DNA of 56,884 bases, from contig JADFMY010000006.1 in the NCBI GenBank assembly GCA_022563685.1, positions 1-56,884 of the forward strand, in the 5' to 3' direction. The notes beneath the pieces were generated by a model that was given only the letters and a program-made list of their open reading frames with translations, had not been told where the DNA came from and searched no databases. Positions within the stretch are counted from its first letter, which is position 1, and each line of letters opens with the position of its first letter. Positions 3,376-20,760 of this stretch are shown here, one piece after another. The position numbers were made by a program, and so were the translations under genes. The DNA comes from Pseudomonadota bacterium. GTDB lineage: Bacteria; Pseudomonadota; Gammaproteobacteria; GCA-001735895.

Positions 3376-4463
3376 CAATTCTCGCCCAGATATTGGAAGA
3401 TGGAAATTCGACTGTTCAGCATGTCAGAAACAAACAACCTGTCGTTACTATCGATCCAGACACCGGTAGGTTGAGAAAATTGTCCCGCCAGGGCGCCCGA
3501 GCCACCAATAGACATCAATAACTCGCCCATAGGGTTAAATATCAGCAGGTGGTCATAATAACTTTCAGTCACATAGATATTACCGTCTGAATCCACCGCT
3601 ATACCCTTGGGACGGGTAAAATTACCGATATAAAGTCCTCGCTGACCGATTATTTTGATGCTTTCATCCGCATCGTTAAAAATCTGTATGCGTGCATTCA
3701 GTGAATCGGCAACATAGAGTTTATCATCGTGGTAATTCAAAAAGGTAGGGTGGTTGAATTCCCCCGGGTTTGATCCCCTGGCGCCCATAACATCCAGCAA
3801 TGCACCCTGGAGGTTGAATATCTTGATATTATCGGCTTTGGTATCGCTGACAAACACGCGTTTACGTAAAGGGTCGTAGGCGATACCGGTGGGTCTTTGC
3901 AGGATTTCTGCACCCAGGGTGTTAATGAGCTGGCCTTCCTCGGTAAAAACATACACCAGGCCCTGTTCGGAATCTGTCACCAGAATAGTGTTTTCAGCAA
4001 TGGCAATGCCGACGGGGCTTTTAAAGGGTATATTCAGTTCAGCTTCATTCCAGATAAAAAATTCGCCAGATTTTTCATCAAACACAAAGACCGCCTGTCG
4101 GCCGGGGTCAGCCACATAAATTCGGCCTTTGTCATCAACGGCTCCATGCTGGGGGCGCAGGAGGTTGATCAGTGGTATAGATTCGCTTTCAAGACCCACG
4201 AGTGCGGAAAAAAATCGTGACAGGGCGCTGCCTTTTTTTTTGTCAGACTTCGCCCGACTGGATTCACCACGTATATCGCCGATATAGATATAACGGGGTG
4301 TTTGTGGCGGACGTGGCCATACTTGCAACTGACCAGGCTGAAGGTTATTCGCGGGCATGCTAAACATGAGCTTGTCTGGTGTGGTGGCACAGGCGTTTAA
4401 CAGGCATACCATCAGACCGGCTGTAGCAGCCAAACGGACCCTGGCCAGGGATTTTTTTACCAT
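3375..4463 (-). CDS. NHL-repeat beta-propeller lipoprotein
   Basis: 362 residues with a signal peptide and lipobox (LLNAC) around residue 25, then about six NHL-type repeats (for example LYVADSLNARIQIF, IYVTESYYDHLLIF, LFVSDMLNSRISIF). This predicts a six-bladed propeller on a lipid-anchored protein. It is a distant paralogue of the NHL lipoprotein at 13794-14900. The start overlaps the end of the triheme gene by 7 bases and the stop overlaps the 11-heme gene, so it sits inside the operon. Such propellers bind proteins or surfaces and have no enzymatic motif here. A role as a scaffold or docking protein for the cytochromes is inference. Confidence 0.85.
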   Translation of the reverse strand: MVKKSLARVRLAATAGLMVCLLNACATTPDKLMFSMPANNLQPGQLQVWPRPPQTPRYIYIGDIRGESSRAKSDKKKGSALSRFFSALVGLESESIPLINLLRPQHGAVDDKGRIYVADPGRQAVFVFDEKSGEFFIWNEAELNIPFKSPVGIAIAENTILVTDSEQGLVYVFTEEGQLINTLGAEILQRPTGIAYDPLRKRVFVSDTKADNIKIFNLQGALLDVMGARGSNPGEFNHPTFLNYHDDKLYVADSLNARIQIFNDADESIKIIGQRGLYIGNFTRPKGIAVDSDGNIYVTESYYDHLLIFNPMGELLMSIGGSGALAGQFSQPTGVWIDSNDRLFVSDMLNSRISIFQYLGEN

Positions 4464-4867
4464 CTTCCCGGGCCTGAGGTCTGATTACTACCGCGTATGC
4501 CGCTTTTTAAACCAGGTTTACCAGAATGACAAAGATCGCAGTTCTCTGTTGACCAGGCAATTTCTCCGTTGTGGCACATCCCGCAAAACTTGCCATCTGT
4601 GATATCGCCCATAGTCATATCATTACTTCCGGCACGCATTTCAAAACCCAGTTCGTAGTGACAGACCTTGCAGCGAAAACGTATTCGATGAAACCAGTGA
4701 GGAAAGATAACTGGCCGAACACCTTCCTGGTCTGAGCGTTTATTAATAACCACATCGGCATACTCAGCATACACGGGCGCGATGAATAAAATACTCAGTA
4801 CCAGGAATAATCCGGATAAAGAATTACGAACACCCTGGTTGAGCCAGGTTAATAGCCAATGACTCAT
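4457..4867 (-). CDS. Triheme c7-type cytochrome (type A, copy 1)
   Basis: 136 residues, signal peptide ending near PVYA, then a small domain with three heme sites CKVCH, CGMCH and CDLCH. The motif FPHWFHRIRF precedes the first heme and supplies two His likely to be distal ligands. It is close to the protein at 8435-8857, sharing VVIN..SD..G.RPVIFPHWFH and CHNGEIAWS.ENC.LCHS. The mature protein has only two His besides the three CXXCH ones, so one heme may not be bis-His. ATGA overlap with the stop of the gene at 4864 indicates coupling. Likely a periplasmic electron shuttle. Confidence 0.85.
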   Translation of the reverse strand: MSHWLLTWLNQGVRNSLSGLFLVLSILFIAPVYAEYADVVINKRSDQEGVRPVIFPHWFHRIRFRCKVCHYELGFEMRAGSNDMTMGDITDGKFCGMCHNGEIAWSTENCDLCHSGKPGLKSGIRGSNQTSGPGRW

Positions 4868-5403
4868 TTGGGTTGCACTCCGGGCTTACCGGTAAAAGTC
4901 CTTCGGGCCACACTGTGGCAGCGTAGACATTCGGTCAATGGAAAAGCGACCGCGCCATGACAGCGGCCACAGTATTCTCCATTAAGAATAGCGAACATAT
5001 TAATGGGATTGGCGCCTACTTTTTCCTTGAAAATACTGTCATGACAATTATCACAATCCAGCCACTCTGTATGACTAAGGTGGGGAAATCTGACCAGGGA
5101 CATTTCACCCGTATTTTCAAGAATAATATCCATGTCCAGTATTTTCACTTTGGTCACTGAAAACAGATTAGACCTTGGTTCAATGTATTTGTCTCGCAAT
5201 GCATCCACCCAGGAAACCATATTCCCTGTAGTATCAGGCGGGAGCAGTATCAGGGCCTCGGACGGTTCCTGCAATAATTCGATGGCCGGTGACTGGGGGT
5301 CATGCAACCCGTCATCGGCCAACAGTTTCCATGTCTGTTTTGCAGCCAACAGGGCGCCTGAAATTAAAATCAGGACAATCAACAGGAGGCGTATTATATT
5401 CAT
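4864..5403 (-). CDS. Triheme c7-type cytochrome (type B, copy 1), membrane-anchored or secreted
   Basis: 179 residues with an N-terminal hydrophobic segment (residues 4-22), a linker, and a C-terminal triheme domain with CDNCH, CGRCH and CLRCH. FPHLSHTEWLDC before heme 1 provides two probable distal His. The last ~125 residues match the C-terminal part of the fused cytochrome at 7500-8429 (HDP, SWVDAL/DWGKAL, HTEWLDC, GAN.I.M..IL, CG.CHG.VAFP..EC). Unlike that protein it has no class-I domain, so it is either an ancestral form or a truncated duplicate. Lies 15 bases after the helical protein gene. Confidence 0.83.
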   Translation of the reverse strand: MNIIRLLLIVLILISGALLAAKQTWKLLADDGLHDPQSPAIELLQEPSEALILLPPDTTGNMVSWVDALRDKYIEPRSNLFSVTKVKILDMDIILENTGEMSLVRFPHLSHTEWLDCDNCHDSIFKEKVGANPINMFAILNGEYCGRCHGAVAFPLTECLRCHSVARRTFTGKPGVQPK

Positions 5404-5418: not shown

Positions 5419-6270
5419 TTATCCAGGAATATAGATACCGGCACTGCGTATCGATCTAACCAGTTGTTTGGTGGATTGTTCCAGCAGTTTGATCGCATCT
5501 TCATATTTTTCATCCTGGGCGGACTGTTCTGCCTGGATTCTCAGTAGTTTTGCCGAGTGGGTAAATTTGGTTACCATCTCCTGAACATAGGTTGACCTGG
5601 CTTTTCCATTTACTAACAACTTTACCAGCATTTTGTGGGTATTATTCCGGTCTATCTCGTACTCGTATTCTTCTTCTGGCGCGGCAAAATTGAGGCTTCT
5701 TACCAACGTCTGACCGCCACGTAAAGACTCAATAGATACTTTAATTAAGTGGTAAGCCTTGTCGAGTTCTTTTTTAGCCAGGATGTGCTTACCATTTTTT
5801 ACAAATTTATCGGCTTTCGTCATTAGCCCGACGAGTTGTTTGTTGGTTTTTTCTTTACTACTAAATTCCTTTTGCTCATCAGCAATACGATTAAATGCCT
5901 TGTTCAGCGTATTGACAGAATCTTTCCGCTTATCGAAATCCAGCTTTAATTTAGCATCGCCTGCGCTCGAAGGCGTTGCCAGGCGGATCGCCATAAACAT
6001 GCTTTTAGCCGATTGATCTAACAGGGTAGATCCTGCTGAATTATTGCCCAGCCTGAATGCATTCTTCGCCTGAATAAATAGGTCTTTCGCTTTTAGATGT
6101 AAGACTTTCACTTTGGGATTGTCGCTTTTTAAAACTTGTTGGGCGCCAGAGGAGGTATCAATCAACTTGTCCAGGAAATTGGCTCGCGAGTCTACCGGGG
6201 GAGCGCCAGAAAAGCCTGCTGGGCTAATCAGCAATAAAGATAAGAGGGTAAGGAAACGAAATATATTCAT
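5419..6270 (-). CDS. Secreted helical protein of unknown family (copy 1)
   Basis: 283 residues from the ATG chosen here; a TTG 15 bases upstream is also in frame. A signal peptide is followed by an almost all-helical, Lys/Glu/Ala-rich protein without cysteines or recognisable enzyme motifs. It is a paralogue of the next gene upstream (6288-7157): both have a central [LF]xFxxPEEEY[ED]Y motif followed by a basic residue and Asn, and both end with an SxxSAxI-type helix and a short hydrophobic tail. The repeating helix pairs resemble TPR-like or four-helix scaffolds but I cannot assign a family. Position between two cytochrome blocks suggests a structural or chaperone role for them. Confidence 0.7.
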   Translation of the reverse strand: MNIFRFLTLLSLLLISPAGFSGAPPVDSRANFLDKLIDTSSGAQQVLKSDNPKVKVLHLKAKDLFIQAKNAFRLGNNSAGSTLLDQSAKSMFMAIRLATPSSAGDAKLKLDFDKRKDSVNTLNKAFNRIADEQKEFSSKEKTNKQLVGLMTKADKFVKNGKHILAKKELDKAYHLIKVSIESLRGGQTLVRSLNFAAPEEEYEYEIDRNNTHKMLVKLLVNGKARSTYVQEMVTKFTHSAKLLRIQAEQSAQDEKYEDAIKLLEQSTKQLVRSIRSAGIYIPG

Positions 6271-6287
6271 AGAAAATTGTCTCAAAA

Positions 6288-7157
6288 TTAAATTCTTATA
6301 CCCATTATTATCAGGGCACTAGATAAATCCCTTATTGACTGGTCGAGTATCTGTATCGCCGTCTCGTGCTGATCGCTTTCTTCCCTGATGCGCGCATCTT
6401 TCGTTGCGGCCTTGCTCCGCTCAAGATACACATCGATCAATTTCAGTGTTTGTTCATGGAAAGTATTTTCGTTTAATACCTTTTCAACCAAATCGAGAAA
6501 GTGCTGGTTTCGTTTTAACATGTAATCGTATTCTTCCTCAGGGGTATCGAACCTAAGGCCATAAACCACGGTGCTCTCATGCTTCAATTTCTGCAGAAGC
6601 TTTGTTTTAAGGTTGTAAACCCTGTGTAAAATTGAACTGGCCTGGTCGTATTCCTGGGCTTCGGCATGTTTTTTTATCTGATCCAGTAAACTGGTAATCC
6701 GTTCAGAGGTTTTATTGAGTAGTTCGTGATCGTCGGGTGATAACTCAGACCACTCGGGTAAAATAAAAGCTTCAACTCTTTTCAGGTTTTCATTATAGAG
6801 ATTCTGGCTGATAGACTTTTTACTCAGTAACTGAGACAAAGTGGTTACATCCCTCAACACATAATCGATGATTGCATTGGCTTCCAGCCAGTTTTGCTGC
6901 CTTACTTTATCGACTGCCAGTTGGTAATTGGATTGAGCAGTTTTCATCAAACTTAAAGCCTCCCTGTTTTCGCTTGACTCGATACGTTGAATTATTGGTG
7001 GATGGCTCAGCAGGTAGTACGCCATCTTGAATTTCTGCGAGAGTTGTTTGTTTTCCTCTCCAAAATCAAGCGACTGGAAATCTTGCATGATCAGGGTCTG
7101 AGCAATAACGGTATTAATATACAGATAGAATATAATCGAGTATTTCAGGTGGCGCAT
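6288..7157 (-). CDS. Secreted helical protein of unknown family (copy 2)
   Basis: 289 residues with a signal peptide ending near VIAQ, then a mostly helical, charged protein. The segment LRFDTPEEEYDYMLKRN (around residues 200-216) aligns with LNFAAPEEEYEYEIDRN of the neighbouring gene at 5419-6270; overall architecture and length are the same. No cysteine, heme site or catalytic motif is present. A clear ribosome site (AGAGGAA, 7167-7173) precedes the ATG, and a long hairpin (7176-7204) lies directly upstream of it, which could control translation or mark an mRNA end. Function unknown. Confidence 0.72.
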   Translation of the reverse strand: MRHLKYSIIFYLYINTVIAQTLIMQDFQSLDFGEENKQLSQKFKMAYYLLSHPPIIQRIESSENREALSLMKTAQSNYQLAVDKVRQQNWLEANAIIDYVLRDVTTLSQLLSKKSISQNLYNENLKRVEAFILPEWSELSPDDHELLNKTSERITSLLDQIKKHAEAQEYDQASSILHRVYNLKTKLLQKLKHESTVVYGLRFDTPEEEYDYMLKRNQHFLDLVEKVLNENTFHEQTLKLIDVYLERSKAATKDARIREESDQHETAIQILDQSIRDLSSALIIMGIRI

Positions 7158-7499: not shown

Positions 7500-8429
7500 T
7501 TACTTGGACTGTGAATGACACTTGCGACACTCTGATACAGGGAAAGCAACCTTTCCATGGCACACGCCACATTGCTGACCCAGCAGTATGGAAGCCATGC
7601 TGATCTGGTTCGCACCTTTTTTCGGGATAAAAATTGCAGGATGGCAGTTAGAACAATCAAGCCATTCAGTATGTTGTTTATGTGGGTAGACAACATTGGG
7701 CATCGAACCTTTTACCTCTCGAACGATATTGAGGTCCATCAATACGGGTACTGTATCTGAATCCAGGAGGTCGTAGCGTGGAGCGATTTTACCATCATGC
7801 AATGCCTTGCCCCAGTCGACACGATTTCCCGACCTGGATTTAGGCAAATTTTGAAATGCAATTTTTGGCGCCTGCAGCATCTCAGTCCCGTCGTTTTCCG
7901 GATCGTGTATGCCATCTTTCATCGGTGGCGGGTTCCAGGCAGACGAGGGTTTCATTAAGCGGTTAAATTTATTTACATTATTGCCGGACTTGATTTTTTT
8001 ATTCTTTTTTTCCAGTTCCAGGGCTGCTTTATTTAGGGTCTTCCCGGGCTCCTGCTCACCGGTTTTTCCCGAATACTTTTCGAATCCCGACTGGCTCAAC
8101 ATGTATGAGATTGCAAATCTGATCTCTTCGTTTTTGATGGCAGGGTTACCGCCTTTCGCGGGCATATTCTTAAAACCGTTTATCGCGTGCTTAGCCAGGG
8201 TTTCAAAACCTTGCTGCTCGCGCGTGACCCAGTCACTGTTAGATCCGAGCTTAGGGGCTTCCAGTACTCCCGCAGCATGGCAGCCTGTGCAACTGAGATC
8301 ATAAACTTGCTTTCCGGTTTTTAAAACTTCTGCCGCCTGGGCATTATTTCCGTTAATAATCGCCAGCATCGCATAAAGTGCAATACCGATGGTAACAAGG
8401 GAATAAAAGGATTTGTTCAGAGGTTTCAT
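7500..8429 (-). CDS. Fused class-I plus triheme cytochrome c (four hemes)
   Basis: About 309 residues. After the signal peptide comes a class-I cytochrome c domain with CTGCH (near residue 46) and a likely Met ligand in GFKNMPAKGG. A charged linker follows, then a triheme c7-type domain with CSNCH, CGVCH and CRKCH, introduced by YPHKQHTEWLDC. The C-terminal part matches the protein at 4864-5403, so this gene joins a soluble monoheme domain to the triheme module. I chose the ATG at 8429, which has AAGGAG eight bases upstream, over the GTG at 8438. It follows the type A triheme gene after 5 bases. It probably bridges periplasmic donors and the outer-membrane cytochromes. Confidence 0.87.
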   Translation of the reverse strand: MKPLNKSFYSLVTIGIALYAMLAIINGNNAQAAEVLKTGKQVYDLSCTGCHAAGVLEAPKLGSNSDWVTREQQGFETLAKHAINGFKNMPAKGGNPAIKNEEIRFAISYMLSQSGFEKYSGKTGEQEPGKTLNKAALELEKKNKKIKSGNNVNKFNRLMKPSSAWNPPPMKDGIHDPENDGTEMLQAPKIAFQNLPKSRSGNRVDWGKALHDGKIAPRYDLLDSDTVPVLMDLNIVREVKGSMPNVVYPHKQHTEWLDCSNCHPAIFIPKKGANQISMASILLGQQCGVCHGKVAFPVSECRKCHSQSK

Positions 8430-8434
8430 GGTAT

Positions 8435-8857
8435 TCACTCCTTTTTACCATCTTTATTATTGCCAGATTCCGCCTTTTTTGATCGGGCCATTAATTTTGA
8501 AATTGTGCTTTCGTGTACCTGGGTTTTTGTACCGGGTTTTGCGGAGTGGCATAAATTGCAGTTCTCCACTGACCAGGCAATTTCGCCATTATGGCAGGCA
8601 CCACAGTATTTACCGTCAATAATATGGAGCATGTTCATTTTGTTCCCACCAGCCTTGAATTCAAATCCAAGGTCGGCATGACAGACCTTGCAACGGAACC
8701 GAATCCGATGAAACCAGTGAGGAAATATTACCGGTCTCATGCCGGCTTCATCCGAAAAGTTGTTAATCACTACATCGCCATATTCAGCCCGGGCCAGGGA
8801 CGAAAAAAATATCAAACTGGGTATTAAAACTATTAATATCTTGAAACTGGTCCGCAT
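8435..8857 (-). CDS. Triheme c7-type cytochrome (type A, copy 2)
   Basis: 140 residues: signal peptide (to about ARAEYG), then CKVCH, CGACH and CNLCH. FPHWFHRIRFRC is identical to the copy at 4457-4867, and the rest of the heme domain is highly similar; the Lys-rich tail differs. A good ribosome site (AGGAGC) precedes the ATG. It lies 14 bases downstream of the outer-membrane barrel gene, which places it as the possible inner partner of that barrel. The triheme fold is that of small periplasmic c7 cytochromes; the direct partner is inferred. Confidence 0.86.
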   Translation of the reverse strand: MRTSFKILIVLIPSLIFFSSLARAEYGDVVINNFSDEAGMRPVIFPHWFHRIRFRCKVCHADLGFEFKAGGNKMNMLHIIDGKYCGACHNGEIAWSVENCNLCHSAKPGTKTQVHESTISKLMARSKKAESGNNKDGKKE

Positions 8858-8871
8858 ATAAAATGCTCCTG

Positions 8872-10641
8872 TTAGAGATCACCGAATCTTCTGGTGAGCT
8901 GTATTTTTATTAAACGGTCATACTCGTCGTCATTATTGATATATGCGAGATTTAGCCGGGCTTCAAACAATCCGATACGATAAATTAATTCGTTTTCCCA
9001 CGAGTTATCGATTACCGAATCATCACTGATTACAAAGTCATTTGGGTTGTCCGATTTTTTCCGGCTAAATTTCAATTTTGACTTAAAACTAAGCTCAGGT
9101 GTATTTAAAAAACGGTTTTTTACGAAATTTATCTGGCCACTACCATGTTGAGAATTAGTGACCCCCTGGGAAGTCGTAACACGGCTTTTCTGCAACGTCA
9201 TATTGACCAGCAGATGGCTATGTCTGCTGAAGCGATAATCATTGGTAATCTGCAAATTGAGTAACTGAAATTTATTTTTGTCAACATCATAATTACGCAC
9301 GTCGGAAGCCAGAAAGCGGACGAAAGAGCTATTGCTCGTGCTGGATTCAGACCAGGCCAGGCTCAGTGAATGATTCAGGCTTTCTGCATCTTCCCCGATG
9401 GAACTGACTTTATTCCCCAGGGATTGATTAAAATTGGACTTAATCTTAATTGCCGGTGTTAGAAACAGGTCTTTCGAAAGGGAATGGCCTAGCCGGAGTT
9501 GCAGGGTTTTTTCGGTGGGAATAAATTTACCATGTACCCGATTGATATTTGATCCGGCATTCCAGCTGTAATACCCTGTCACGGTCTTTACTAAGTCGGA
9601 GTTATAGCTAATCCCTGCGGACTCTGACATGCTAAATTGGCCAATGTTGTTGTTTTCTATCTGGCTTGCGTTTATCGACTCCGTGATTGTAATTCTGGGT
9701 GTAAAGTTGTAAATCAAACCCTGATTAAAATTTAGGGCAGGTTGTTCGGTACGAGTTATTGTATTCCCAGGTAAAACCGGATTTTTTTGCTCGGACAACT
9801 GCCTGAGATTGGAGACGCGAATATTCCCGGTTATATTCAAATCGGAACGACTGGCGGGTTGCCACGAGAGAAAGCTCGAAAATTGATTATTTGTGATATC
9901 GGTGGAAGCGTTAATAAAATCGCTATGGGTTTGCGTCGTCGATAGCAGATTTTCCAGAGTTAAATTCTTTTTCCCCGTATAGGAATGCCGGCCGGTTAGC
10001 GCGTAGTTAGTGGTGTCATCCTCATTCGAATTGCTGGTGTTGTCATAATTGATATCGCCAGACAGTTTGTTTTCCTGTAGCTGATATCCTGCAGTAAAAC
10101 CCAGGGCGTCATTGACAAAGCTGGTCTGGTCGATATCGTCGCGTTTATTGCGCTCCAGGTTAGCGCTGTAGAATTGCTTTCCATCCAGGGAGCGATATTG
10201 TTGCCGCATGCCGATGAGGGTATTGGTGATAGTCCTGTTAAACAATTTGGCATCGAGTTCATTCTTATTTTTGTTGGCATAAAACGTAAACGGAAATCGA
10301 CTGGTGGGGAATAGATTTAGCTGAAACTTCCCGTTGATAAATTCGTCTCGACTAGTCACCGCATCGTTGGATGCTTCTTCATTCGATGCAAACGACAAGC
10401 TGCCGTTTATCAGGGCAAACCAGGGGTGCCAGATATAGCTGCTGGCGTTGATAGTCGATACTGTGAGCCAGTCTGTCGAAGGACTCATGCCATTATTAAA
10501 ATCCCGCTCCCGGTAAATAGTACTCAAATCACCCCATGTTCGAATCGGGGCGATTTCTGCTTTGGCAATATTTTGATAATTCACAAACATAATGAGACAA
10601 ATAATACTAATCGACCAAAAAATTGAATCTCTTAGGTGCAT
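8872..10641 (-). CDS. Outer-membrane beta-barrel, candidate porin of a porin-cytochrome conduit
   Basis: 589 residues from the ATG at 10641 (a TTG at 10647 is also in frame). After a signal peptide the protein is a long series of alternating polar/hydrophobic strands with Asn/Ser/Thr-rich turns, typical of a barrel of 20 or more strands, ending in IQLTRRFGDL. No TonB box, plug domain or cysteine pair is seen, so it is neither a TonB receptor nor a close copy of MtrB. It lies between a PPIase and a triheme cytochrome in one operon, the arrangement expected of a conduit in which a barrel sheathes multiheme cytochromes. Family identity with known conduit porins cannot be proven by eye. Confidence 0.8.
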   Translation of the reverse strand: MHLRDSIFWSISIICLIMFVNYQNIAKAEIAPIRTWGDLSTIYRERDFNNGMSPSTDWLTVSTINASSYIWHPWFALINGSLSFASNEEASNDAVTSRDEFINGKFQLNLFPTSRFPFTFYANKNKNELDAKLFNRTITNTLIGMRQQYRSLDGKQFYSANLERNKRDDIDQTSFVNDALGFTAGYQLQENKLSGDINYDNTSNSNEDDTTNYALTGRHSYTGKKNLTLENLLSTTQTHSDFINASTDITNNQFSSFLSWQPASRSDLNITGNIRVSNLRQLSEQKNPVLPGNTITRTEQPALNFNQGLIYNFTPRITITESINASQIENNNIGQFSMSESAGISYNSDLVKTVTGYYSWNAGSNINRVHGKFIPTEKTLQLRLGHSLSKDLFLTPAIKIKSNFNQSLGNKVSSIGEDAESLNHSLSLAWSESSTSNSSFVRFLASDVRNYDVDKNKFQLLNLQITNDYRFSRHSHLLVNMTLQKSRVTTSQGVTNSQHGSGQINFVKNRFLNTPELSFKSKLKFSRKKSDNPNDFVISDDSVIDNSWENELIYRIGLFEARLNLAYINNDDEYDRLIKIQLTRRFGDL

Positions 10642-10647
10642 GCACAA

Positions 10648-11649
10648 TTATTCTTCATCGATAGCGGCAGGTATATTTTCATTGACGTATATATCTGCTG
10701 CCTGAATCAGGCTTCCGGTATATTCTTTCCATGCCTTATCCTGTGACTCGCGATAAAGCAGGTTTGCAGCACGCTGTTTAACTTCACTAAAGGACTTGAA
10801 TTTTTCAGGCTGGATCCCATTAAGACGAAATATAGTGAAACCCTCGAGGACGCGAACAGGAGGGCTTATTTCATTGATTTTCAGATTGTTCACGGCAGTA
10901 TTCGAATCACCGTCGAGCATACCCTGGTGCAGGTAACCCAGATCACCGCCATTGACTGCGCTCAGGTGAGATGAATAGCTACGGGCCAAATCTGCAAAAA
11001 TTTCGCCCTCGCGCATACGCTGAATAAGTTGATTAGCCGCCTTTTCGGCATCTAGCCAGGTTTGATTGGTCGACGATGGTGGAACCGACAGCAGGATAAC
11101 GGATACCCAGAACCGGCCCGGCTCGGTGAATTTTTCAGGGTGTTGTTTATAATAGGCCTGTACAGCCTGCGCATCGGGTTGCTCGATATCCCTGATTCTG
11201 GACTGGATCTGTTCGATCAAATCCTGACGCTCAAGCATCTCCAGTAAGCGCGGCAGGTTTTCTTCTTTCTGCGCCTGCCATTCTGGGCTGTCGCTGTATT
11301 TATCGTCATACTCTGCGAGGCCAGCCAGTATTTTCTCTCTGTCGGGGTTAAGACCTTGCTTGACGGCCTGCTGATGAATTAAAACCTGCTCGACGATATC
11401 CCTGCCGACCTGTTTTTGGAATCTCACGAGTTCATCTTTGGGGACTTCTCCATGATAGTACTTGTAACGAACCGCGGCTCGAAAAATATCCATGAACTCG
11501 TCATAGAGAATAATACGATCATTGATACGCGCAAAAACGGGGTTCTGTGAGGTTGTGTCCTGTGCCGAAATAGCGGGCCAGGACGTGATAACTAGTATCA
11601 GGCACAAGCCCAGTGTTTTCGTAACCTGCTTGAATTTGCTTACCCACAC
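10648..11649 (-). CDS. Periplasmic parvulin-type peptidyl-prolyl cis-trans isomerase
   Basis: 333 residues starting at GTG with a signal peptide (to about AISAQD). An N-terminal helical SurA-like chaperone region (residues 30-165) is followed by a parvulin domain: VSVILLSVPP, then FADLARSYSSHLSAVNGGDLGYLHQG, and a C-terminal ISPPVRVLEGFTIFRLNGI. These are the rotamase signatures of the PpiC/SurA family. It folds outer-membrane or secreted proteins. The stop abuts the barrel gene, and the tetraheme gene lies upstream behind a hairpin terminator, so its clients are probably the barrel and the secreted cytochromes. Confidence 0.9.
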   Translation of the reverse strand: MWVSKFKQVTKTLGLCLILVITSWPAISAQDTTSQNPVFARINDRIILYDEFMDIFRAAVRYKYYHGEVPKDELVRFQKQVGRDIVEQVLIHQQAVKQGLNPDREKILAGLAEYDDKYSDSPEWQAQKEENLPRLLEMLERQDLIEQIQSRIRDIEQPDAQAVQAYYKQHPEKFTEPGRFWVSVILLSVPPSSTNQTWLDAEKAANQLIQRMREGEIFADLARSYSSHLSAVNGGDLGYLHQGMLDGDSNTAVNNLKINEISPPVRVLEGFTIFRLNGIQPEKFKSFSEVKQRAANLLYRESQDKAWKEYTGSLIQAADIYVNENIPAAIDEE

Positions 11650-11687
11650 ATTAAGGTACCGTTTTTTCTGCTGCTAAAATTAACAAA

Positions 11688-11714
11688 CCCCCCATTGATA
11701 CTTTCAATGGGGGG
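11688..11714 (-). terminator. Hairpin terminator or attenuator after the tetraheme gene
   Basis: A perfect 11-pair stem (CCCCCCATTGA / TCAATGGGGGG) with a 5-base loop, followed on the minus strand by TTTGTTAATTTT. It lies 27 bases past the stop of the tetraheme cytochrome and 38 bases before the PPIase start. No second promoter is evident, so it may let only part of transcription continue and thereby keep the tetraheme gene far more expressed than the rest of the operon. Confidence 0.8.
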
Positions 11715-11740
11715 TGTCATGTCTCAGGCTATAGAGTCTC

Positions 11741-12511
11741 TTACTTGGTATGACAGGCCAGACAGACTGCACTACCAGCGTTCGAGATCCGAAGGAAAGT
11801 GGCGTTTGTTGTGTGAGGATCATGGCAACTGGCGCATTCCACGAATGGCTGAGCTGTACCCGTGTCGATGCCTGCCACCGAACGAGTATATAGCTGCATA
11901 TCTGTTTTCTCACGCGAAGTATTTCCACCTGTTTCGACCCACCAGATAGTGGTGCCGTTGATAGGGGCATTGAGAGGCGCCACAAAATCGCTGTCATTGA
12001 GGGTACCGGTCTTAGCATTAACAGTGATGCCGCCGCCACCATACTGGATGCCAATGGGGTGATCGTCTTGTAGATCAGTGCCAATCAGAGCGTTACCCGC
12101 AGGTCTGTCGGCGCCTGTCCAGGTACCGGTCATGCCGGTATTTGGTGCGTTTATTACAGAATCCATAGCCTGGGTGCCATCATGGCAGGACAGGCAGGCG
12201 ATAGATACCGAGCCGACAGGCGCTGTTGCACCGTCCAGGCTGCTGGTTCCCAGGCTGTCATAGGTGGTGTATGTGGCCCCTCCCAGGGTTCTGTTCCACA
12301 GTGGCACGGAAGCCGAAATATCCGATCCGTGCGGGGTATGGCAGAACACACATATTTCGGCTGTGCCGCTAAACGTATTGGGCCCGGGGCCGCCTGAGCC
12401 TAAATTATGCTTGGTCGTGGCAACAGCTGCTATTGCGCTCCCTCCCGCGAGTAACAGGCCCGCTACTATCGCGAACCTGCCTGCAGTTTTTATTAATTTT
12501 TGGAGTTTCAT
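11741..12511 (-). CDS. Tetraheme c-type cytochrome, candidate extracellular cytochrome filament subunit
   Basis: 256 residues; signal peptide to about residue 29. Heme sites at residues 54-58 (CVFCH), 106-110 (CLSCH), 226-230 (CASCH) and 250-254 (CLACH), the last one two residues from the C-terminus. Exactly four other His exist (35, 61, 151, 233), just enough for bis-His ligation of every heme. Between hemes the chain is Gly/Thr/Ser-rich with few charges. Size, heme number, a heme at the very end and CxxCHxPH motifs recall OmcE/OmcS-type nanowire cytochromes, but homology is not established. The same layout forms the N-terminus of the 11-heme protein. It is first in its transcription unit, behind a sigma-54 promoter, and is followed by a terminator hairpin. 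Ribosome site GAGG lies eight bases before the ATG. Confidence 0.88.
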   Translation of the reverse strand: MKLQKLIKTAGRFAIVAGLLLAGGSAIAAVATTKHNLGSGGPGPNTFSGTAEICVFCHTPHGSDISASVPLWNRTLGGATYTTYDSLGTSSLDGATAPVGSVSIACLSCHDGTQAMDSVINAPNTGMTGTWTGADRPAGNALIGTDLQDDHPIGIQYGGGGITVNAKTGTLNDSDFVAPLNAPINGTTIWWVETGGNTSREKTDMQLYTRSVAGIDTGTAQPFVECASCHDPHTTNATFLRISNAGSAVCLACHTK

Positions 12512-12565
12512 GATCTTAGCCTCTATAGTTGTAAATAAATTGGTAAAGTAAGTATCTATAACGAT

Positions 12566-12580
12566 GCAGGTATTGTGCCA
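12566..12580 (-). promoter_or_regulatory. Sigma-54 (-24/-12) promoter of the tetraheme cytochrome unit
   Basis: Read on the minus strand: TGGCAC, five bases, CTGC followed by A. This matches the sigma-54 consensus (TGGCAC-N5-TTGCA) except for one base in the -12 element. It lies 55 bases upstream of the tetraheme ATG, suitable spacing for a short leader. The activator would be the NtrC-type protein encoded at 20761-22122. Confidence 0.72.
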
Positions 12581-13793: not shown

Positions 13794-14900
13794 TTATTCG
13801 TTCTCAGCAGGGCGCGGAAGGCCAAAAAACCCCTGTTCTTCAGTGATAGACGCAGGTCTGAATACATCTACTTTTCTAAAATACTGATCCACCATGTACA
13901 CACGCCCATCTTCATCCACATCGAGACCTGCGGGCAACATAAAGTTCGCTGGGCCTGCGCGGCTGTCGCGGCGGCCAACGGCCAGTAACAACTGACCCGC
14001 CGGGTTAAATATCTGGAAATTGCCAAAAGCGGCATCGGATACATAGATATTGCCATCTTTATCCGAGCCTATGCCTTTGGGTCTGGAAAATTGTCCACCT
14101 CGACGGCCTATATCGCCGAAGGAGCGAATAAATTCGCCTTGCTGGCTAAACACCTGGATACGAAAGTTACCGCCATCGACCACATACAGGTTTCCATCGG
14201 CGGCGATCACCGCATCCCGGGGTAAATTAAGTTCACCCTCCCCAGAACCGCGTTGCGAAATATTATAAAGAAACTCACCCGTTTGCGCGTCAAGCACCAC
14301 GACTCGGTGCCAATCGCTGCTGACGCCGCCGGTGTCGACCACAAATACTTTCTTGCCGTCTGGATCGACAGCGAGGCCCGCCGGACGGCTGAAAAGGTCC
14401 CGGTGACCCAGCGTTCGCAGGTAATTGCCATCCCGGTCGAACACCACGACTCGTTTCATGCTGGCATCGCAGACATATAGGTTCCCGTCCCTGTCTACAT
14501 CCAGCCCCATGGGTTTGGATAATTCTCCGGGAGGCGTGGTACCAATTTCGAAATACCTGCCTTCCCGCTTGTCGAAAGCATGTACTTTCCTTTGCTGGGT
14601 GTCTGACACAAAAACCCGACCCTGATGGACGCTGACAGCAAAGGGTTTTCCCATGCCAAAACCAGTGCGCGCCTGCCCGGTAATGAGTCTTTTAAAAGCA
14701 GCCTCTTTACCTTCCTGCTCTACATCGGCGCTGCTGATCAGGCTTTGCTGATAATGAAATCGCGGTTGATCCGGGGGCGGGGGAAAGACGGGTTTTTCAA
14801 CTTGAACAGAATCTGGTATGGTCGCGCACCCTGCCTGAAAAAGAAAAATAGCCAGAAGTAACAGGTGGAATAAAGAGCTTCCGGGTTTATTGATTGACAT
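13794..14900 (-). CDS. NHL-repeat six-bladed propeller lipoprotein
   Basis: 368 residues from the ATG at 14900, followed by a signal peptide and lipobox FQAGC. An in-frame ATG at 14963 falls within the sigma-54 promoter and so cannot be the start. Repeats such as LYVCDASMKRVVVF, LYVVDGGNFRIQVF, IYVSDAAFGNFQIF and VYMVDQYFRKVDVF form about six NHL blades. A paralogue lies at 3375-4463; both begin with a Pro-rich stretch and PR[YF] after the lipobox. Lipid-anchored, probably outer membrane. It is first in its unit from the divergent promoter region shared with the cytochrome at 15067. No catalytic motif; likely a binding or scaffold protein. Confidence 0.86.
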   Translation of the reverse strand: MSINKPGSSLFHLLLLAIFLFQAGCATIPDSVQVEKPVFPPPPDQPRFHYQQSLISSADVEQEGKEAAFKRLITGQARTGFGMGKPFAVSVHQGRVFVSDTQQRKVHAFDKREGRYFEIGTTPPGELSKPMGLDVDRDGNLYVCDASMKRVVVFDRDGNYLRTLGHRDLFSRPAGLAVDPDGKKVFVVDTGGVSSDWHRVVVLDAQTGEFLYNISQRGSGEGELNLPRDAVIAADGNLYVVDGGNFRIQVFSQQGEFIRSFGDIGRRGGQFSRPKGIGSDKDGNIYVSDAAFGNFQIFNPAGQLLLAVGRRDSRAGPANFMLPAGLDVDEDGRVYMVDQYFRKVDVFRPASITEEQGFFGLPRPAENE

Positions 14901-14959
14901 ACATTTTCCGCAGGAAATTGGGTTGAAATAACAGGACAAGTGTGTATAAGTAATTATAA

Positions 14960-14974
14960 GCAATTAAGGTGCCA
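14960..14974 (-). promoter_or_regulatory. Sigma-54 promoter of the NHL lipoprotein
   Basis: Minus strand reads TGGCAC, five bases, TTGC: an exact consensus in -24, spacing and -12. Expected transcription start is near 14948, 48 bases before the ATG at 14900. The element is 16 bases from the divergent sigma-54 promoter at 14991. Confidence 0.85.
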
Positions 14975-15005: not shown

Positions 15006-15066
15006 CCGCTGATGCGAGGACTGCCGGCGCCAACAATTTTGTAAAAGTATTGTTAAGGTTAACATA

Positions 15067-16062
15067 ATGAAATCGATGATGTTTTGCCTGGTTCTGGCCC
15101 TGTCCGGACTGACATTTCAGGCCCATGCGGCCGAGATCGACGCAGCGGGGCTCTACCAGGATTACTGCTCCGTATGCCATGGCGAGAAAGGTGATGGAAA
15201 AAGTCATGCGATGCAAGGATTAATCCCGCCACCGAGAGATTTCACCAGTCCTCAGTCATCCATCGAGCTCAACTTTGGGCGGATAGTGCATGCGATTCGT
15301 GAAGGCGTGCCCGGAACCGCTATGACAGCCTGGAAATCGAGACTTAGTGCTGAACAAATAAATGCCATAAGTCGCCACATTCAACAGAAATTCTTACGTG
15401 CAGCGACGGTAGAAACCGCCACCGAGGGCAGTCGTATTTATGCCGATTTCTGTTCCGTTTGCCATGGCGATACAGGCAAGGGTGCGGTATGGGCAACCAG
15501 TGGGCTTAATCCACGCCCCGTGGACTTCACTTCGACCGCAGCCCTGGCGACACTGGACCGGTTAAGAATGATCAATGCCGTTTCTTACGGGAGGCCGGAA
15601 ACAGCGATGACGGGTTGGAAAAACCGTTTAACCGACACTCAAATTGAAGTAGTGGTGGATTACGTTATTAATTCCTTTATGTCAGGCTCGGATGCCGAGA
15701 AAAAGCTGCAGACGGAGTCGGTCCCGGTTAGTGTGGATACCCGAGCGAATATGGATTTGCCGATGCCTTTCGATCTACACGGGGATTACAATAAAGGCGC
15801 CGCGCTGTATATGAGTAATTGCTCGACCTGTCATGGCGTGACGGGTGATGGACGCGGGCCCCGTGCCTACTTTATCAATCCCAAACCGCGTAATTTTCTA
15901 CATACATCCTCTCGTGCCACGCTAAATCGCCCTGCGCTTTATGAATCGGTAGCAAAAGGTAAACTACGTACCGAAATGCCCGCCTGGGAGACGGTTCTGG
16001 ATCCGCAGCAGCTGGCGGACGTCAGTGAATTTGTTTACCAGCAGTTTATCCGCGAAAAATAA
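15067..16062 (+). CDS. Triple-domain class-I cytochrome c
   Basis: 331 residues with a signal peptide (to about AHAAEI). Three class-I cytochrome c domains have CSVCH at residue 34, CSVCH at 129 and CSTCH at 252, each followed by a Pro-rich PPPRDF/PRPVDF/PKPRNF loop and a Met ligand motif (GTAMTAW, ETAMTGW, TEMPAW). His/Met hemes of this type have high potential, unlike the bis-His multiheme proteins on the other strand. First gene after a sigma-54 promoter and 8 bases from the next cytochrome gene. Probably a periplasmic electron carrier between inner-membrane complexes and the multiheme set. Confidence 0.9.
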   Translation: MKSMMFCLVLALSGLTFQAHAAEIDAAGLYQDYCSVCHGEKGDGKSHAMQGLIPPPRDFTSPQSSIELNFGRIVHAIREGVPGTAMTAWKSRLSAEQINAISRHIQQKFLRAATVETATEGSRIYADFCSVCHGDTGKGAVWATSGLNPRPVDFTSTAALATLDRLRMINAVSYGRPETAMTGWKNRLTDTQIEVVVDYVINSFMSGSDAEKKLQTESVPVSVDTRANMDLPMPFDLHGDYNKGAALYMSNCSTCHGVTGDGRGPRAYFINPKPRNFLHTSSRATLNRPALYESVAKGKLRTEMPAWETVLDPQQLADVSEFVYQQFIREK

Positions 16063-16070
16063 ATTTTGTT

Positions 16071-17063
16071 GTGAAACAGCTGCTGAATAATCTTTGTACA
16101 CCCCTGTACCTGGTTTTTTTTGCAACCGGCCTCCTGGCACAGGAAGAGCTGGAACTGCCGATATCCAATGCTAGTGACTACCATGAACAGGGAAGAGCAA
16201 TTTATAACTTTCGATGCTACTTCTGTCACGGTTATTCGGGTGATGCGCGCACCCTCGCAACCACTTTTGTAAATCCGCCACCGCGAGATTTTACGCGCGC
16301 AAAAGACGCTGATTTATCTCGCCCGCAGATGTTGCGGGCGGTCAAATACGGCCAGCCTGATACAGCTATGACGGGGTTTTCTCGAGTATTGAATAGCCAG
16401 GAAATTGCCACGGTTGTCGATTTTATTCGCGTTGAATTCATGCTCAATAAGGAGATCAATACGCGTTATCATACACCTGAAAATGGTTGGCCTGATCATC
16501 GACGGTACGCTATCGCTTTTCCATTTGCGACTGGAGAAATTCCTCTGGATAAACCCTGGGAAGATTTGACCGCACGACAGGTCAGGGGTAAACAGCTTTT
16601 TTTGACCAGTTGCATTACCTGTCATGATCGATCCCGGGTGATAAATGAAGGTGATATCTGGATAAAACAGTCCGTTTCCTACCCCAGGAATAACTATTCT
16701 CATACCCGCATAGATGCGGTGAGTTCAGCCAGTATTTACGCGCAGCACGATATTTCACCAGAATTGCCTTCACTCTCGGCGAAGGCCGGGATCGGAAGGC
16801 TACTGTGGCTTGAAAATTGTGCTTTTTGCCACGCTGCCGATGGCAGTGGTCAAAACTGGATTGGCAGCTTCCTGGAGCCACCTCCGAGAGATTTGCGGGA
16901 CCCACATTTTATGGCTGGCATGACTATCGACCTCCTGATTGAGCGTATTGAAAATGGACTGGTCAACACCTCTATGCCGGCCTGGAGGCAGGTACTGAGC
17001 AGAGAACAGATTGGTTATATTGTCAGTTATATTTCGGAAGCTTTTCATAGGGTCAGGGAATAA
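16071..17063 (+). CDS. Triple-heme class-I cytochrome c, paralogue of the preceding gene
   Basis: 330 residues starting at GTG, with a signal peptide ending near LLAQ. Heme sites CYFCH (residue 49), CITCH (181) and CAFCH (250). Domains 1 and 3 keep the PPPRDF loop and Met motifs (DTAMTGF, NTSMPAW). The middle domain is different: it has a long insert with WIKQSVSYPRNN and no obvious TxM ligand loop, so its heme may be ligated otherwise. It lies 8 bases after the previous gene, with which it probably forms a two-protein carrier. Confidence 0.88.
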   Translation: MKQLLNNLCTPLYLVFFATGLLAQEELELPISNASDYHEQGRAIYNFRCYFCHGYSGDARTLATTFVNPPPRDFTRAKDADLSRPQMLRAVKYGQPDTAMTGFSRVLNSQEIATVVDFIRVEFMLNKEINTRYHTPENGWPDHRRYAIAFPFATGEIPLDKPWEDLTARQVRGKQLFLTSCITCHDRSRVINEGDIWIKQSVSYPRNNYSHTRIDAVSSASIYAQHDISPELPSLSAKAGIGRLLWLENCAFCHAADGSGQNWIGSFLEPPPRDLRDPHFMAGMTIDLLIERIENGLVNTSMPAWRQVLSREQIGYIVSYISEAFHRVRE

Positions 17064-17994: not shown

Positions 17995-19518
17995 ATGAAT
18001 ATCAAATCGTTTATACAGCTTTTCCAGGGGCCATCAATTACTGGTGAAAATCTCGCGAATTTCGATAACGGTAAAGGTATTCTGAGCCCGCTGAAATTTA
18101 AAGGTTATCTGTTTAATATCCTGCTGGTAGCGTACATCGCATTTATTACTGCGTTTGTGCTGAGTCAGCGAGATCAACCTTTGGAGCAGCTCGAGCAGTA
18201 CCAGAAAATACAGAAGGCACAGGAAGCGCTGGTGCAGGCAGACCTGGCTGCTTTTCACATCGTCACGGTGCTGTTTTCCGAAGTTTCACAATCCGATCTG
18301 GAAAGTGTGGTGCAATACTTTTCCAGTCTGCGAGATCAATATATCAATTTACAGCAATGGTTTCCCGAGCAGGCTGAGGCATTCAGAGCGTTAGTCGAAT
18401 CGATTCCGGCGACGCTGGATGAGCCCAGTGAGAGAAATTTGAAAAATATACACTTTCATTTGGCTCGTTCCAAAACCGAGCTGGATCGTTTGATGGTATT
18501 AAATAGTGAACGCCTAACCGATCTGGTTGCAAGCCATCGGGCACATAATGAATCTGTCGTGGTCACAACCCTGGCATTAGGCATTATGGGGCTGATCCTG
18601 CTGGGAGGCATTACCAGCCTGTTTTTTAGTCGACTCAAAAAAGATCTTAACGCGCTACAGAAACGTACTGCTGAAATTGTTCAGGGGTATCGTGGCGAGC
18701 CTTTACCCGTATCCCGCAATGACGAAGTGGGGTATCTGACGCAGGGTGTTAATTATATGGCCGATGCCCTGGCCGAGCGTGAGCAGGCACTGGAAATTCA
18801 ACGTAGTACGGTGTCGTTCATGGAGAAAATGGTTGCCATCGATTCTCTGACGGGTGGAATTGCGCATGAAATCGGAAACCCCGTCACCTGTATAGCAGGT
18901 TTGGCAGAAGTGTTAAAAAATGATGAAGACAGCCAGTTAAGCGAAGAGAGCCGGCAATCTCTGGAAGCCATCCTGGATCATATCGATGGCCTGGTCAGAC
19001 TTACCCGGGAGTTGTCCGTTTTTGATACCCATAAGAGCGATGAATACGAATGGCTGGATATCAATCGCGTGGTTTCCAATACCTGCAGCATTTTTAATTA
19101 CGATAAACGCTGGGCGGGTATCCAAATTAATATGGATCTAGACCATTCTATCCCGGCGATATTTGCTTCGGTCAATCAGCTTACCCAGCTCATTAGTAAT
19201 ATTCTCGAAAATGCCATGGATGCGGAGCGCAATATTCAGCAACCCGAGGTAATAATCAGTACGCAGCTGCAGGACTCTGAGAATCTGTTAATTCGGATTA
19301 GCGATAACGGACAGGGTATGGACCAGGATGTTATGGCGCATATTTTTGATCCGTTTTTCAGCACCAAGCCGGTCGGGTTGGGAACCGGGTTGGGGCTTGC
19401 AATTTGCTGGAGCATCGTTAAAGCTCACAATGGCACCATTAAAGCAACGTCTACTGTCTCACAGGGTAGTGAAATCAGCATCATATTACCGATTAAAAAA
19501 GCAGAGAGTTCAGAGTGA
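17995..19518 (+). CDS. Membrane sensor histidine kinase
   Basis: 507 residues: membrane segment near 39-57, a ~130-residue periplasmic helical sensor, second membrane segment near 186-206, HAMP linker, HisKA with the phospho-acceptor in GGIAHEIGNP (His about 291), then HATPase with NILENAMDA, DNGQGM and GTGLGLAI. The HEIGNP box is of the NtrB type, as expected for a kinase acting on an NtrC-like regulator. The next gene, also a kinase, overlaps by 4 bases. The sensor domain is not a recognised heme or PAS domain. Confidence 0.92.
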   Translation: MNIKSFIQLFQGPSITGENLANFDNGKGILSPLKFKGYLFNILLVAYIAFITAFVLSQRDQPLEQLEQYQKIQKAQEALVQADLAAFHIVTVLFSEVSQSDLESVVQYFSSLRDQYINLQQWFPEQAEAFRALVESIPATLDEPSERNLKNIHFHLARSKTELDRLMVLNSERLTDLVASHRAHNESVVVTTLALGIMGLILLGGITSLFFSRLKKDLNALQKRTAEIVQGYRGEPLPVSRNDEVGYLTQGVNYMADALAEREQALEIQRSTVSFMEKMVAIDSLTGGIAHEIGNPVTCIAGLAEVLKNDEDSQLSEESRQSLEAILDHIDGLVRLTRELSVFDTHKSDEYEWLDINRVVSNTCSIFNYDKRWAGIQINMDLDHSIPAIFASVNQLTQLISNILENAMDAERNIQQPEVIISTQLQDSENLLIRISDNGQGMDQDVMAHIFDPFFSTKPVGLGTGLGLAICWSIVKAHNGTIKATSTVSQGSEISIILPIKKAESSE

Positions 19519-20756
19519 AAAATATAACAGAGGATGACGATAATGATACTGATATGATCACTGAATTGAATCTGGTGAGAGATGCGCTGGAGAACAGCCA
19601 AAGCCAGTTGGCTGACACCGATGACAAAGGGATGAGTGAAACCCGCTACCAGAATTATGCCTATGTAGTTGAAAATGCCCCGATTTCTGTGATGATTACA
19701 GATGCAGGAGGATTGATTACATTCGTTAATCCGAAATTTGAAGAAGTCACGGGTTACAAATTGCATGAGGTAGTGGGTAAGAATCCCAATATTCTCAATT
19801 CAGGGGAAACCCCGGAAGGAGCTTACAATGATTTATGGAAAACCATCAAAGCAGGAAACCAGTGGTCTGGTGTATTCCACAATCGACGAAAAGATGGTGC
19901 GCTGTTCTGGGAGAGGGCCGTTATTACTGGCATCAAGAATGCGCAGGGGGAAATATCACACTATATAGCGATCAAGGAGGATATAACCGAGGTCAAGGAA
20001 GCGCATAAAAAACTGGAACAGGAACGGCTGAGAATTATTCAGCATTCGAAAATGGCGGAGATTGGGCTGATAGCGGCCGGAATACTGCATGAAGTTGGAA
20101 ATCCCTTAGCGGCTATTAGAGGATTGATTTGTGATATTAAAGATTCCTGTGCTCTGACTGGCGATGGCGAGTCCTCGCGCGAAATGATCGCTCACCAGCT
20201 GGATCAGGTTCTGAGCGAGGTAGATCGCATCACTTGCATCACAATGGATATATCAGAGTTTTCCTACTCGAATAATGCTAAGGCAGATTTGTTGGATATT
20301 AATGGACTGGTGGATACTACCTGTCGCCTGATTCAATATGATAAGCGTTGGGATAGAATCGAATTACGAGTGGTTCTCGACCCGGAGTTGCCCCCTGTAA
20401 ACGCGATAAAGGATTATATCATCCAGGTATTGATCAACCTGTTTAGCAATGCCGTGTATGCTGTTGAGCAGGTAAAGGGCAGAAAGTCTGAGGTGCAGGT
20501 ATCTACTTTCCATGATGCCGAAAATATTTACATCAGTATCAAGGACAATGGATGCGGGATCAAACAGGAAAATTTACCCAGAATATTTGATAATTTCTTT
20601 ACCAACAAAGACCAGGGAAAAGGCACCGGGATCGGACTGGCCTTGTGCAAGTCACTCATCGACAGTCATCAGGGCACTATTGAAATTCAATCTAAGGAAG
20701 GACTCGAGACAGAAGTCTGTATCTCTTTGCCCATCCATTCTGATACGGAAGTTTAA
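19515..20756 (+). CDS. Soluble PAS-domain histidine kinase
   Basis: 413 residues from a GTG overlapping the previous stop. No membrane segment. N-terminal coiled region, a PAS domain (VVENAPISVMITDAGG to YIAIKEDITE, residues 50-165), HisKA with AGILHEVGNP (His about 192), then HATPase with NLFSNAVYAVEQ, DNGCGI and GTGIGLAL. It shares the HE[IV]GNP box and DKRWxxI region with the kinase before it, pointing to duplication. It probably senses a cytoplasmic or redox signal while its partner senses the periplasm. It ends 4 bases before the regulator gene. Confidence 0.92.
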   Translation: MKNITEDDDNDTDMITELNLVRDALENSQSQLADTDDKGMSETRYQNYAYVVENAPISVMITDAGGLITFVNPKFEEVTGYKLHEVVGKNPNILNSGETPEGAYNDLWKTIKAGNQWSGVFHNRRKDGALFWERAVITGIKNAQGEISHYIAIKEDITEVKEAHKKLEQERLRIIQHSKMAEIGLIAAGILHEVGNPLAAIRGLICDIKDSCALTGDGESSREMIAHQLDQVLSEVDRITCITMDISEFSYSNNAKADLLDINGLVDTTCRLIQYDKRWDRIELRVVLDPELPPVNAIKDYIIQVLINLFSNAVYAVEQVKGRKSEVQVSTFHDAENIYISIKDNGCGIKQENLPRIFDNFFTNKDQGKGTGIGLALCKSLIDSHQGTIEIQSKEGLETEVCISLPIHSDTEV

Positions 20757-20760
20757 GCTT

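Follow-up and report, generated by a model that had tools for sequence, protein, structure and literature searches.

This locus raises the question of whether a small tetraheme c-type cytochrome of a gammaproteobacterium forms an extracellular heme filament, and how such a filament would be joined to the cell by the products of the neighbouring genes. The window, i.e. the whole stretch of DNA that was analysed, comprises 56,884 nucleotides. The initial annotation placed the gene at 11741-12580, a range made up of the uetA coding sequence and a promoter-like site, and assigned the host to the gammaproteobacteria, in agreement with the gammaproteobacterial genus of the genome. The genes considered are listed below, with the basis of each assignment in parentheses.

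961..3378, minus strand: uetJ, 805 amino acids, 11 CXXCH (homology and CXXCH count)
3375..4463, minus strand: NHL-like propeller at the UetH/I position (named by reading and gene order)
4457..4867, minus strand: triheme cytochrome, 3 CXXCH (CXXCH count)
4864..5403, minus strand: triheme c7-type cytochrome, TIGR04257 (family match)
5419..6285, minus strand: heme-free protein near the UetF position, matched in 53 of 60 loci (gene order)
6288..7157, minus strand: heme-free protein near the UetF position, matched in 9 of 60 loci (gene order)
7500..8438, minus strand: class I cytochrome c domain fused to a triheme c7 domain, 4 CXXCH (family match)
8435..8857, minus strand: triheme c7-type cytochrome, TIGR04257 (family match and CXXCH)
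8872..10647, minus strand: 591-amino-acid protein at the UetC (porin) position, putative barrel (gene order)
10648..11649, minus strand: PPIC-type peptidyl-prolyl isomerase (PPIase) at the UetB position (family match)
11741..12511, minus strand: uetA, OmcE-like tetraheme c-type cytochrome, 256 amino acids (open reading frame and homology)
13794..14963, minus strand: NHL propeller protein upstream of uetA (family match)
15067..17063, plus strand: two divergent genes with three CXXCH each and cytochrome c (CBB3-type) domains (domain match)

The Uet complex of Tenderiales is described as comprising the undecaheme UetJ, the extracellular tetraheme UetA, the trihemes UetDEG, the PPIase UetB, the NHL proteins UetHI and the porin UetC (PMC10734462), and uetABCDEFGHIJ as an electron-uptake cluster conserved in Tenderiales (PMC12575090). 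Both sources link Uet to electrode-oxidising Tenderiales. In a 2017 Tenderia metatranscriptome, trihemes are among the most expressed genes, and the passages that report them do not name UetA (PMC5371394). The genes at 961-12511 correspond to those of the uet cluster described for "Ca. Tenderia"; hence the gene is uetA and the system is already known, which the initial annotation had missed, as it had the second OmcE-like domain, carried by the undecaheme of the cluster. By homology and gene order, the window gene is the first gene of the Uet cluster and a new member of a named system, for which Eddie 2022 (mSphere) is said to be the primary paper.

Comparison with the Uet cluster of Candidatus Tenderia electrophaga, as PMC10734462 and PMC12575090 describe it, revealed the same set of tetraheme, PPIase, porin-position, triheme, NHL and 11-heme genes. 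The window differs from Tenderia Uet in its class I cytochrome-triheme fusion, in two heme-free genes near UetF and in one NHL gene lying upstream of uetA. UetDEG are represented by three triheme proteins and the fusion, and UetH and UetI may correspond to the NHL-like gene at 3375-4463 and the NHL gene at 13794-14963. The 591-amino-acid protein has no Pfam or NCBIfam match; a homologue occupies the right place, also on contig L090, titled Candidatus Tenderia sp. (tblastn, same order), where uetA, PPIase, barrel, triheme and cytochrome-triheme genes follow one another in window order as far as the contig reaches. The downstream genes had been annotated as secretion and wiring machinery. Wiring is the better term and agrees with the published porin-cytochrome conduit; secretion was not upheld, since the genes are those of the conduit and none of the 11 stretches of the second cluster type described below has a PPIase match. 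Beside the cluster, at 22366-25129 (plus strand), lie a monoheme cytochrome gene and two propeller genes (Reg_prop in the one scanned), a trio that recurs near uet in L086, L091, L106, L109, L117, L120 and L127.

Recounting of the 256 residues of UetA gave the values of the initial annotation: four CXXCH motifs (residues 54, 106, 226 and 250), four other histidines (35, 61, 151 and 233) and no more, and the last heme histidine at residue 254, two residues from the C-terminus. The N-terminus reads as a plain signal peptide. A Pfam and NCBIfam scan returned the doubled-CXXCH motif alone above the cut-off. Searching all PDB chains with UetA (phmmer) identified OmcE of Geobacter (7tfs) with an E-value of 1.2e-29, residues 14-256 aligning to 10-232, and 9yuq with 1.4e-29; the third of five matches at E≤10 reached only 0.45. 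The entry 9yuq ("Putative multiheme cytochrome c", 16 chains) is as strong a homologue as OmcE and is not mentioned in the literature searched. A profile of 18 UetA rows (window protein and 17 relatives) found OmcE (7tfs, E-value 5.4e-34) and 9yuq alone at E≤0.01. No chain named OmcS or OmcZ appeared among the five phmmer or the two profile matches, as judged by molecule names, some of which are generic.

UetA and OmcE share 37% identity over 212 aligned columns and all eight axial histidines; OmcE of Geobacter sulfurreducens (7tfs) likewise has four CXXCH, the same distal histidine columns and a heme two residues from its C-terminus. The structure of OmcE is reportedly the subject of Wang 2022. 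UetA differs from OmcE in that His151 and the third heme are separated by more residues, Trp among them, and in the location of its gene inside a porin-cytochrome operon, and it is known here from genes alone, whereas OmcE is known as a filament (PMC9473688). OmcS and OmcZ also are extracellular heme filaments; in OmcE and OmcS one heme is ligated by a histidine of the neighbouring subunit, and the four hemes of OmcE superpose on hemes 1-4 of OmcS (PMC9473688). The OmcE-like subunit proposed in the initial annotation holds as a full-length OmcE homologue sharing the eight axial histidines and is a candidate for polymerisation. The low charge noted earlier was confirmed: D, E, K and R make up 11.8% of mature UetA and 14.4% of OmcE, as against 24-25% of two triheme proteins of the window. 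Both UetA and OmcE are rich in Ser, Thr, Asn and Gly, and the two trihemes differ from them.

Analysis of relatives revealed strong conservation of the heme ligands. All eight axial histidines are invariant in the 18 UetA rows. In a larger set of 80 UetA rows, which includes the window protein and was filtered for at least four CXXCH, fewer than 420 amino acids and more than 43% identity to the window protein, seven axial histidines are present in every row and H61 in 79, the exception being the lone gene of L069. The tail after the last heme is two residues long in all 80 rows, as in 7tfs. Counted after residue 30 of the extracted frame, 47 rows have four histidines beyond CXXCH, 20 have five, 12 have six and one has seven; "exactly four" is therefore true of the window UetA and most, not all, relatives. 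The eight histidine columns are also occupied in 11 of 11 rows comprising the window UetA, three other UetA, OmcE and six N-terminal domains of UetJ. In a tree of 112 rows (UetA, UetJ N-domains, OmcE and 9yuq), the UetJ N-domains form a single clade, and OmcE and 9yuq fall outside UetA, nearer the UetJ N-domains, on long branches flagged by the program; because of these branches the tree supports no claim on which lineage is older. An AlphaFold model of single-chain UetA, built from 18 alignment rows including the query, was unusable (pLDDT 33.6) and speaks neither way.

The N-terminus of UetJ is the sole other UetA match in the host genome. Residues 34-268 (approximately) of UetJ constitute an OmcE-like tetraheme domain that matches 7tfs with an E-value of 2.6e-17, and the remainder is heptaheme; UetJ differs from UetA in that it runs on past the fourth heme into this heptaheme part. 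Eleven CXXCH motifs occur in all eight complete UetJ relatives extracted. His44, which aligns with His35 of UetA, the first histidine of the mature chain, is invariant in nine UetJ. Among the 52 class-sample genomes with a match, 41 carry a small (open frame of at most 500 amino acids) and a large (above 500) OmcE-like frame at most 15 kb apart on one contig, as taken from the listed class-sample rows; of the other 11, five have both on different contigs or further apart, one has the large frame only and five the small one only. If UetA subunits join as those of OmcE do, the UetJ N-domain would present the subunit contact a single time, its C-terminal side being taken up by the heptaheme part, as a base subunit would require; this arrangement makes UetJ a candidate for the filament base at the outer membrane. 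The AlphaFold model of UetJ (nine rows) was unusable (pLDDT 27.8).

Comparison of genome samples revealed UetA matches in 8 of 31 genomes of the genus, 12 of 41 of the order and 52 of 369 of the class; these counts include the window genome, and some matches represent the UetJ N-domain only. In a scan of species genomes at least 591 stretches matched UetA, of which 561 were confirmed and the best 80 kept. Records among these best 80 of at least 591 matches are mainly titled Beta- or Gammaproteobacteria, and carriers among them include Ramlibacter alkalitolerans, Piscinibacter defluvii, Aromatoleum toluolicum, Dechloromonas hankyongensis and Halomonas sp. DQ26W. No UetA match at E≤1e-5 was found in 72,556 plasmid records. 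Contigs titled Caldilineales (Chloroflexota; L084), Nitrospirae (L062) and Nitrospinota (L107) also carry uetA; L084 clusters inside gammaproteobacterial UetA, so that mis-binning is possible. A UetA relative with 41% identity is present on two IMG/VR contigs filed as viral (L010 and L011), where no other window protein was found.

Gene order is largely conserved among the best of the at least 591 matches. Of the 75 named loci whose sequence extends 1.2 kb or more beyond uetA, 71 have the PPIase gene as the next match. The four others are L071, which has all but the PPIase, and L066, L069 and L105, in which uetA stands without any downstream gene; L105 is a 5.3-kb contig, L066 is on the same contig as cluster locus L063, and L069 is in the same strain as cluster locus L055. 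The 60 loci with at least 9 kb downstream contain matches to the PPIase (57), the 591-amino-acid protein (56), the first triheme (57), the cytochrome-triheme fusion (57), NHL (57) and UetJ (48). A UetJ match is present in the loci of Dechloromonas hankyongensis XY25 (L104), Ramlibacter alkalitolerans KACC 19305 (L055) and Piscinibacter defluvii SH-1 (L067). Seven of the 12 loci without UetJ end within 0.2 kb of the NHL match (L063, L065, L096, L113, L115, L116 and L125), two are lone uetA genes, L100 and L132 run 3.0 kb and 0.7-1.3 kb further without a match, and L099 (Aromatoleum toluolicum) has uetA and most of the operon followed by resB and ccsA, with no UetJ match. Of the 65 loci with at least 4.5 kb on the upstream side of uetA, 51 have the NHL gene, and 42 and 40, respectively, have the two divergent genes with three hemes each.

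The initial annotation credited uetA with its own sigma-54 promoter and a strong hairpin directly after the gene. Matching was carried out with the sigma-54 pattern TGGCACN5TTGCW. The elements concerned and the putative regulators are listed below.

11687..11715, minus strand: 12-pair terminator-like hairpin between uetA and the PPIase gene (folding)
12565-12580, minus strand: sigma-54-like site TGGCACAATACCTGCA before uetA, one mismatch (pattern match)
14959-14974, minus strand: exact sigma-54-like site before or at the start of the upstream NHL gene (pattern match)
14991-15006, plus strand: sigma-54-like site, one mismatch, before the divergent cytochromes (pattern match)
17214-17229: exact sigma-54-like site before or at the start of a thioredoxin-like gene (pattern match)
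17995..22122, plus strand: two histidine kinases and a sigma-54-activating response regulator (domain matches)

Six sites with at most one mismatch occur in the window, whereas 30 simulated sequences contain 1.97 on average and five at most; two of the six are exact (simulated mean 0.03) and four precede genes of the uet region. The other two, each with one mismatch (37610-37625 and 37868-37883, plus strand), lie far from the uet genes. Taken alone, the site before uetA is not remarkable. The promoter claim gains weight from the relatives, in which the site recurs: at most one mismatch within 300 nt upstream of the uetA match was observed in 22 of 79 named loci (best of the at least 591 matches), compared with 21 of 1449 mostly coding stretches drawn at random from these loci and with 8 of 333 stretches in a second control, which lie upstream of the cluster genes for the PPIase (73 loci), the barrel (69), triheme c7c (69), triheme c7b (62) and NHL1 (60). 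At up to two mismatches the figures are 47 of 79, 125 of 1449 and 44 of 333. The contrast for uetA thus stands against the second control as well. The NHL gene upstream of uetA has sites in 11 of 52 relatives at one mismatch and 15 of 52 at two, and 32 of the 79 uetA loci (about 40%) are without even a two-mismatch site. RpoN is encoded in the host genome, and the kinases and response regulator at 17995..22122 are candidate regulators of the sites, a link to uet suggested by their nearness.

The hairpin was likewise confirmed. The 91-nt stretch after uetA folds at -27.8 kcal/mol, a stability reached by none of 200 shuffles. Among relatives, the 90 nt after uetA has a z-score of -2 or below in 48 of 73. 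Such scores occur in 12 of 259 control stretches that follow four other genes of the cluster and in 11 of 55 that follow the NHL gene upstream of uetA; most of the control stretches probably enter the next gene, owing to tight spacing, so that this contrast is partly one of intergenic versus coding DNA. A stable fold is missing after uetA in 25 of the 73 relatives. The hairpin could favour uetA over the downstream genes. From the two elements we infer strong transcription from uetA, which would then be cut, or its message stabilised, after the gene; as a many-copy subunit would be expected to need this, the promoter-like site and hairpin are read as pointing to an excess of uetA. Between uetA and the next upstream gene, at 12790-12985, the stretches TGTTGGGGTTCG and ACCCCAACCTACTGGCTA are repeated and resemble small repeat elements by eye.

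Eleven stretches with a 4-5 kb spacing (L134-L144) represent a second cluster type, more minimal than the window-type Uet cluster. Analysis of these revealed an 11-heme protein of 558-608 amino acids in 10 of 11 (905 in L140, probably from an over-long start), a heme-free protein of 632-717 amino acids at the barrel place in 10 of 11 (an inferred barrel, one of which matches the window protein at 8e-4) and at least one NHL match in 9 of 11. A complete four-CXXCH small protein with two residues after the last heme is present in 8 of 11; L139 is cut at the contig end, L137 has no intact small open reading frame and L143 has none of these. Triheme matches occur in four stretches, octaheme matches in five and the PPIase as best match in none of the 11. 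The eight histidine columns are occupied in 21 of 21 rows comprising the window UetA, OmcE, the window UetJ, eight small tetrahemes and 10 undecahemes. A strict eight-histidine regular expression matched 9 of 9 UetJ, 9 of 10 undecahemes and 1 of 8 tetrahemes of the second type; it required C.[FY]CH and was too narrow, and the alignment was used instead. Judged from these alignments and gene orders, the common core of both types is a small OmcE-like tetraheme, NHL, the barrel-place protein and an undecaheme with an OmcE-like start.

A UetA paralogue with at most 43% identity to the window UetA was observed upstream of NHL2 and uetA (loci including L104, L099, L078, L093, L129, L092, L094, L101 and L122) and is absent from the window genome. 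Most of the records that carry it have Betaproteobacteria, or a family of that group, in their title. All 19 four-CXXCH rows lack exactly the H61-equivalent histidine and keep the other seven axial histidines, CHTPH being changed to CH(T/A)P followed by Q, T, I, S, M, A or R; the order paralogue-NHL2-uetA is found in 17 of the 19. Three extra five-CXXCH rows keep the H61 equivalent. The paralogue is possibly an end subunit with an open or non-His-ligated heme.

Taken as a whole, the data are probably best explained by a UetA filament on a UetJ-based conduit of the Uet cluster. UetA would be exported by its signal peptide and loaded with four hemes, each ligated by two histidines. As in the homologous OmcE, the subunits most likely join head to tail on the outside of the cell and build up a thin filament of hemes. 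Electrons of the filament would pass to an outer-membrane conduit of the UetC-position protein and UetJ, presumably so located, and on to periplasmic triheme and class I cytochromes. UetJ is probably the base of the wire: UetA would dock on its OmcE-like first ~235 mature residues as on another UetA, and the C-terminal heptaheme extension would block growth at that end. The sigma-54-like promoter and the hairpin would supply far more subunit than conduit, and net flow in the window host is probably electron uptake. The longer stretch before the third heme of UetA, the tree placement, the unusable models, the number of distal histidines, the Tenderia metatranscriptome passages that name the trihemes and not UetA, the missing sites or folds in some relatives and L099 without UetJ are counted against this explanation.

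It is possible, with less support than the filament, that UetA binds to UetJ as single molecules or short oligomers and is a surface or extracellular adaptor or shuttle that forms no long filament. All four distal histidines lie within the chain and suffice for a bis-His monomer, their number being equally compatible with a monomer and a polymer, and the passages of PMC10734462 that concern UetA call it an extracellular tetraheme cytochrome, not a filament. Against the adaptor, the only solved relatives found are the OmcE filament (PMC9473688) and 9yuq with its 16 chains, the C-terminal heme position is kept in all 80 rows, and the promoter-like site and hairpin suggest an excess of uetA.

A further alternative, about as likely as the adaptor, retains the same proteins and reverses the flow, the cluster exporting electrons to minerals. 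OmcE serves export in Geobacter (PMC12307469), undecahemes are described in manganese-reducing Dechloromonas (PMC13264449, 2026) and Dechloromonas hankyongensis (L104) carries the cluster, which may thus run outward elsewhere. The host genome contains two COX1-family oxidase genes and one RuBisCO-large-family gene, a full-length match to a family of which RuBisCO-like proteins are also members; these suit an electron-uptake autotroph and favour uptake over export, as does the published link to cathode oxidation (PMC10734462, PMC12575090), although direction may differ among hosts. No MtrA/DmsE-type decaheme was found above the cut-off in the host genome (92% complete), where one of two weak sub-cut-off matches is uetA itself, so Uet may be the main conduit of the host in either direction. 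That UetA is a periplasmic carrier functionally unrelated to OmcE, as its plain signal peptide and its operon with triheme c7-type cytochromes of a periplasmic kind might suggest, is very improbable in view of the full-length OmcE homology and an OmcE-like composition unlike that of the two window trihemes.

The reading of UetA as a filament on a UetJ-based conduit can be extended, though we regard the extension as doubtful, to Uet as a complete nanowire apparatus with a built-in UetJ base, His44 taking part in inter-subunit ligation and the paralogue acting as end subunit. The UetJ N-domain would then amount to a subunit of the UetA kind joined to a heptaheme in the outer membrane, filament and conduit would meet through the head-to-tail heme contact that also links the subunits, and the mostly betaproteobacterial paralogue would be specialised for the end of the filament, with a single reactive heme.

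Homologues of OmcS, OmcE and OmcZ across domains have already been reported in a review (PMC12307469). Among the papers listed that use uet gene names, OmcE is absent from the text of PMC10734462 and PMC13386937 and occurs once in PMC12575090, in the reference list. None of the following was found in the literature searched: an explicit UetA-OmcE link, which may already be in print among the reported OmcE homologues; the OmcE-like domain in UetJ and the pairing of small and large frames, the second cluster type included; the sigma-54-like sites before uetA and the hairpins after it, each of which about 60% of relatives share; and the paralogue minus one axial histidine. The finding is real and partly anticipated in print, and what is added is the OmcE domain in UetJ, the core common to two cluster types and the paralogue one ligand short.

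A 2025 review describes the anchoring of nanowires in the envelope and their electron entry and exit points as unresolved (PMC12307469). An OmcE-like subunit, a porin-position protein, propellers and an OmcE-domain undecaheme in one conserved unit would provide a concrete, testable model of anchoring. Heme wires are said to be ubiquitous (Baquero 2023), and Uet suggests that OmcE-type wires may occur in autotrophic or aerobic Proteobacteria besides Geobacter.
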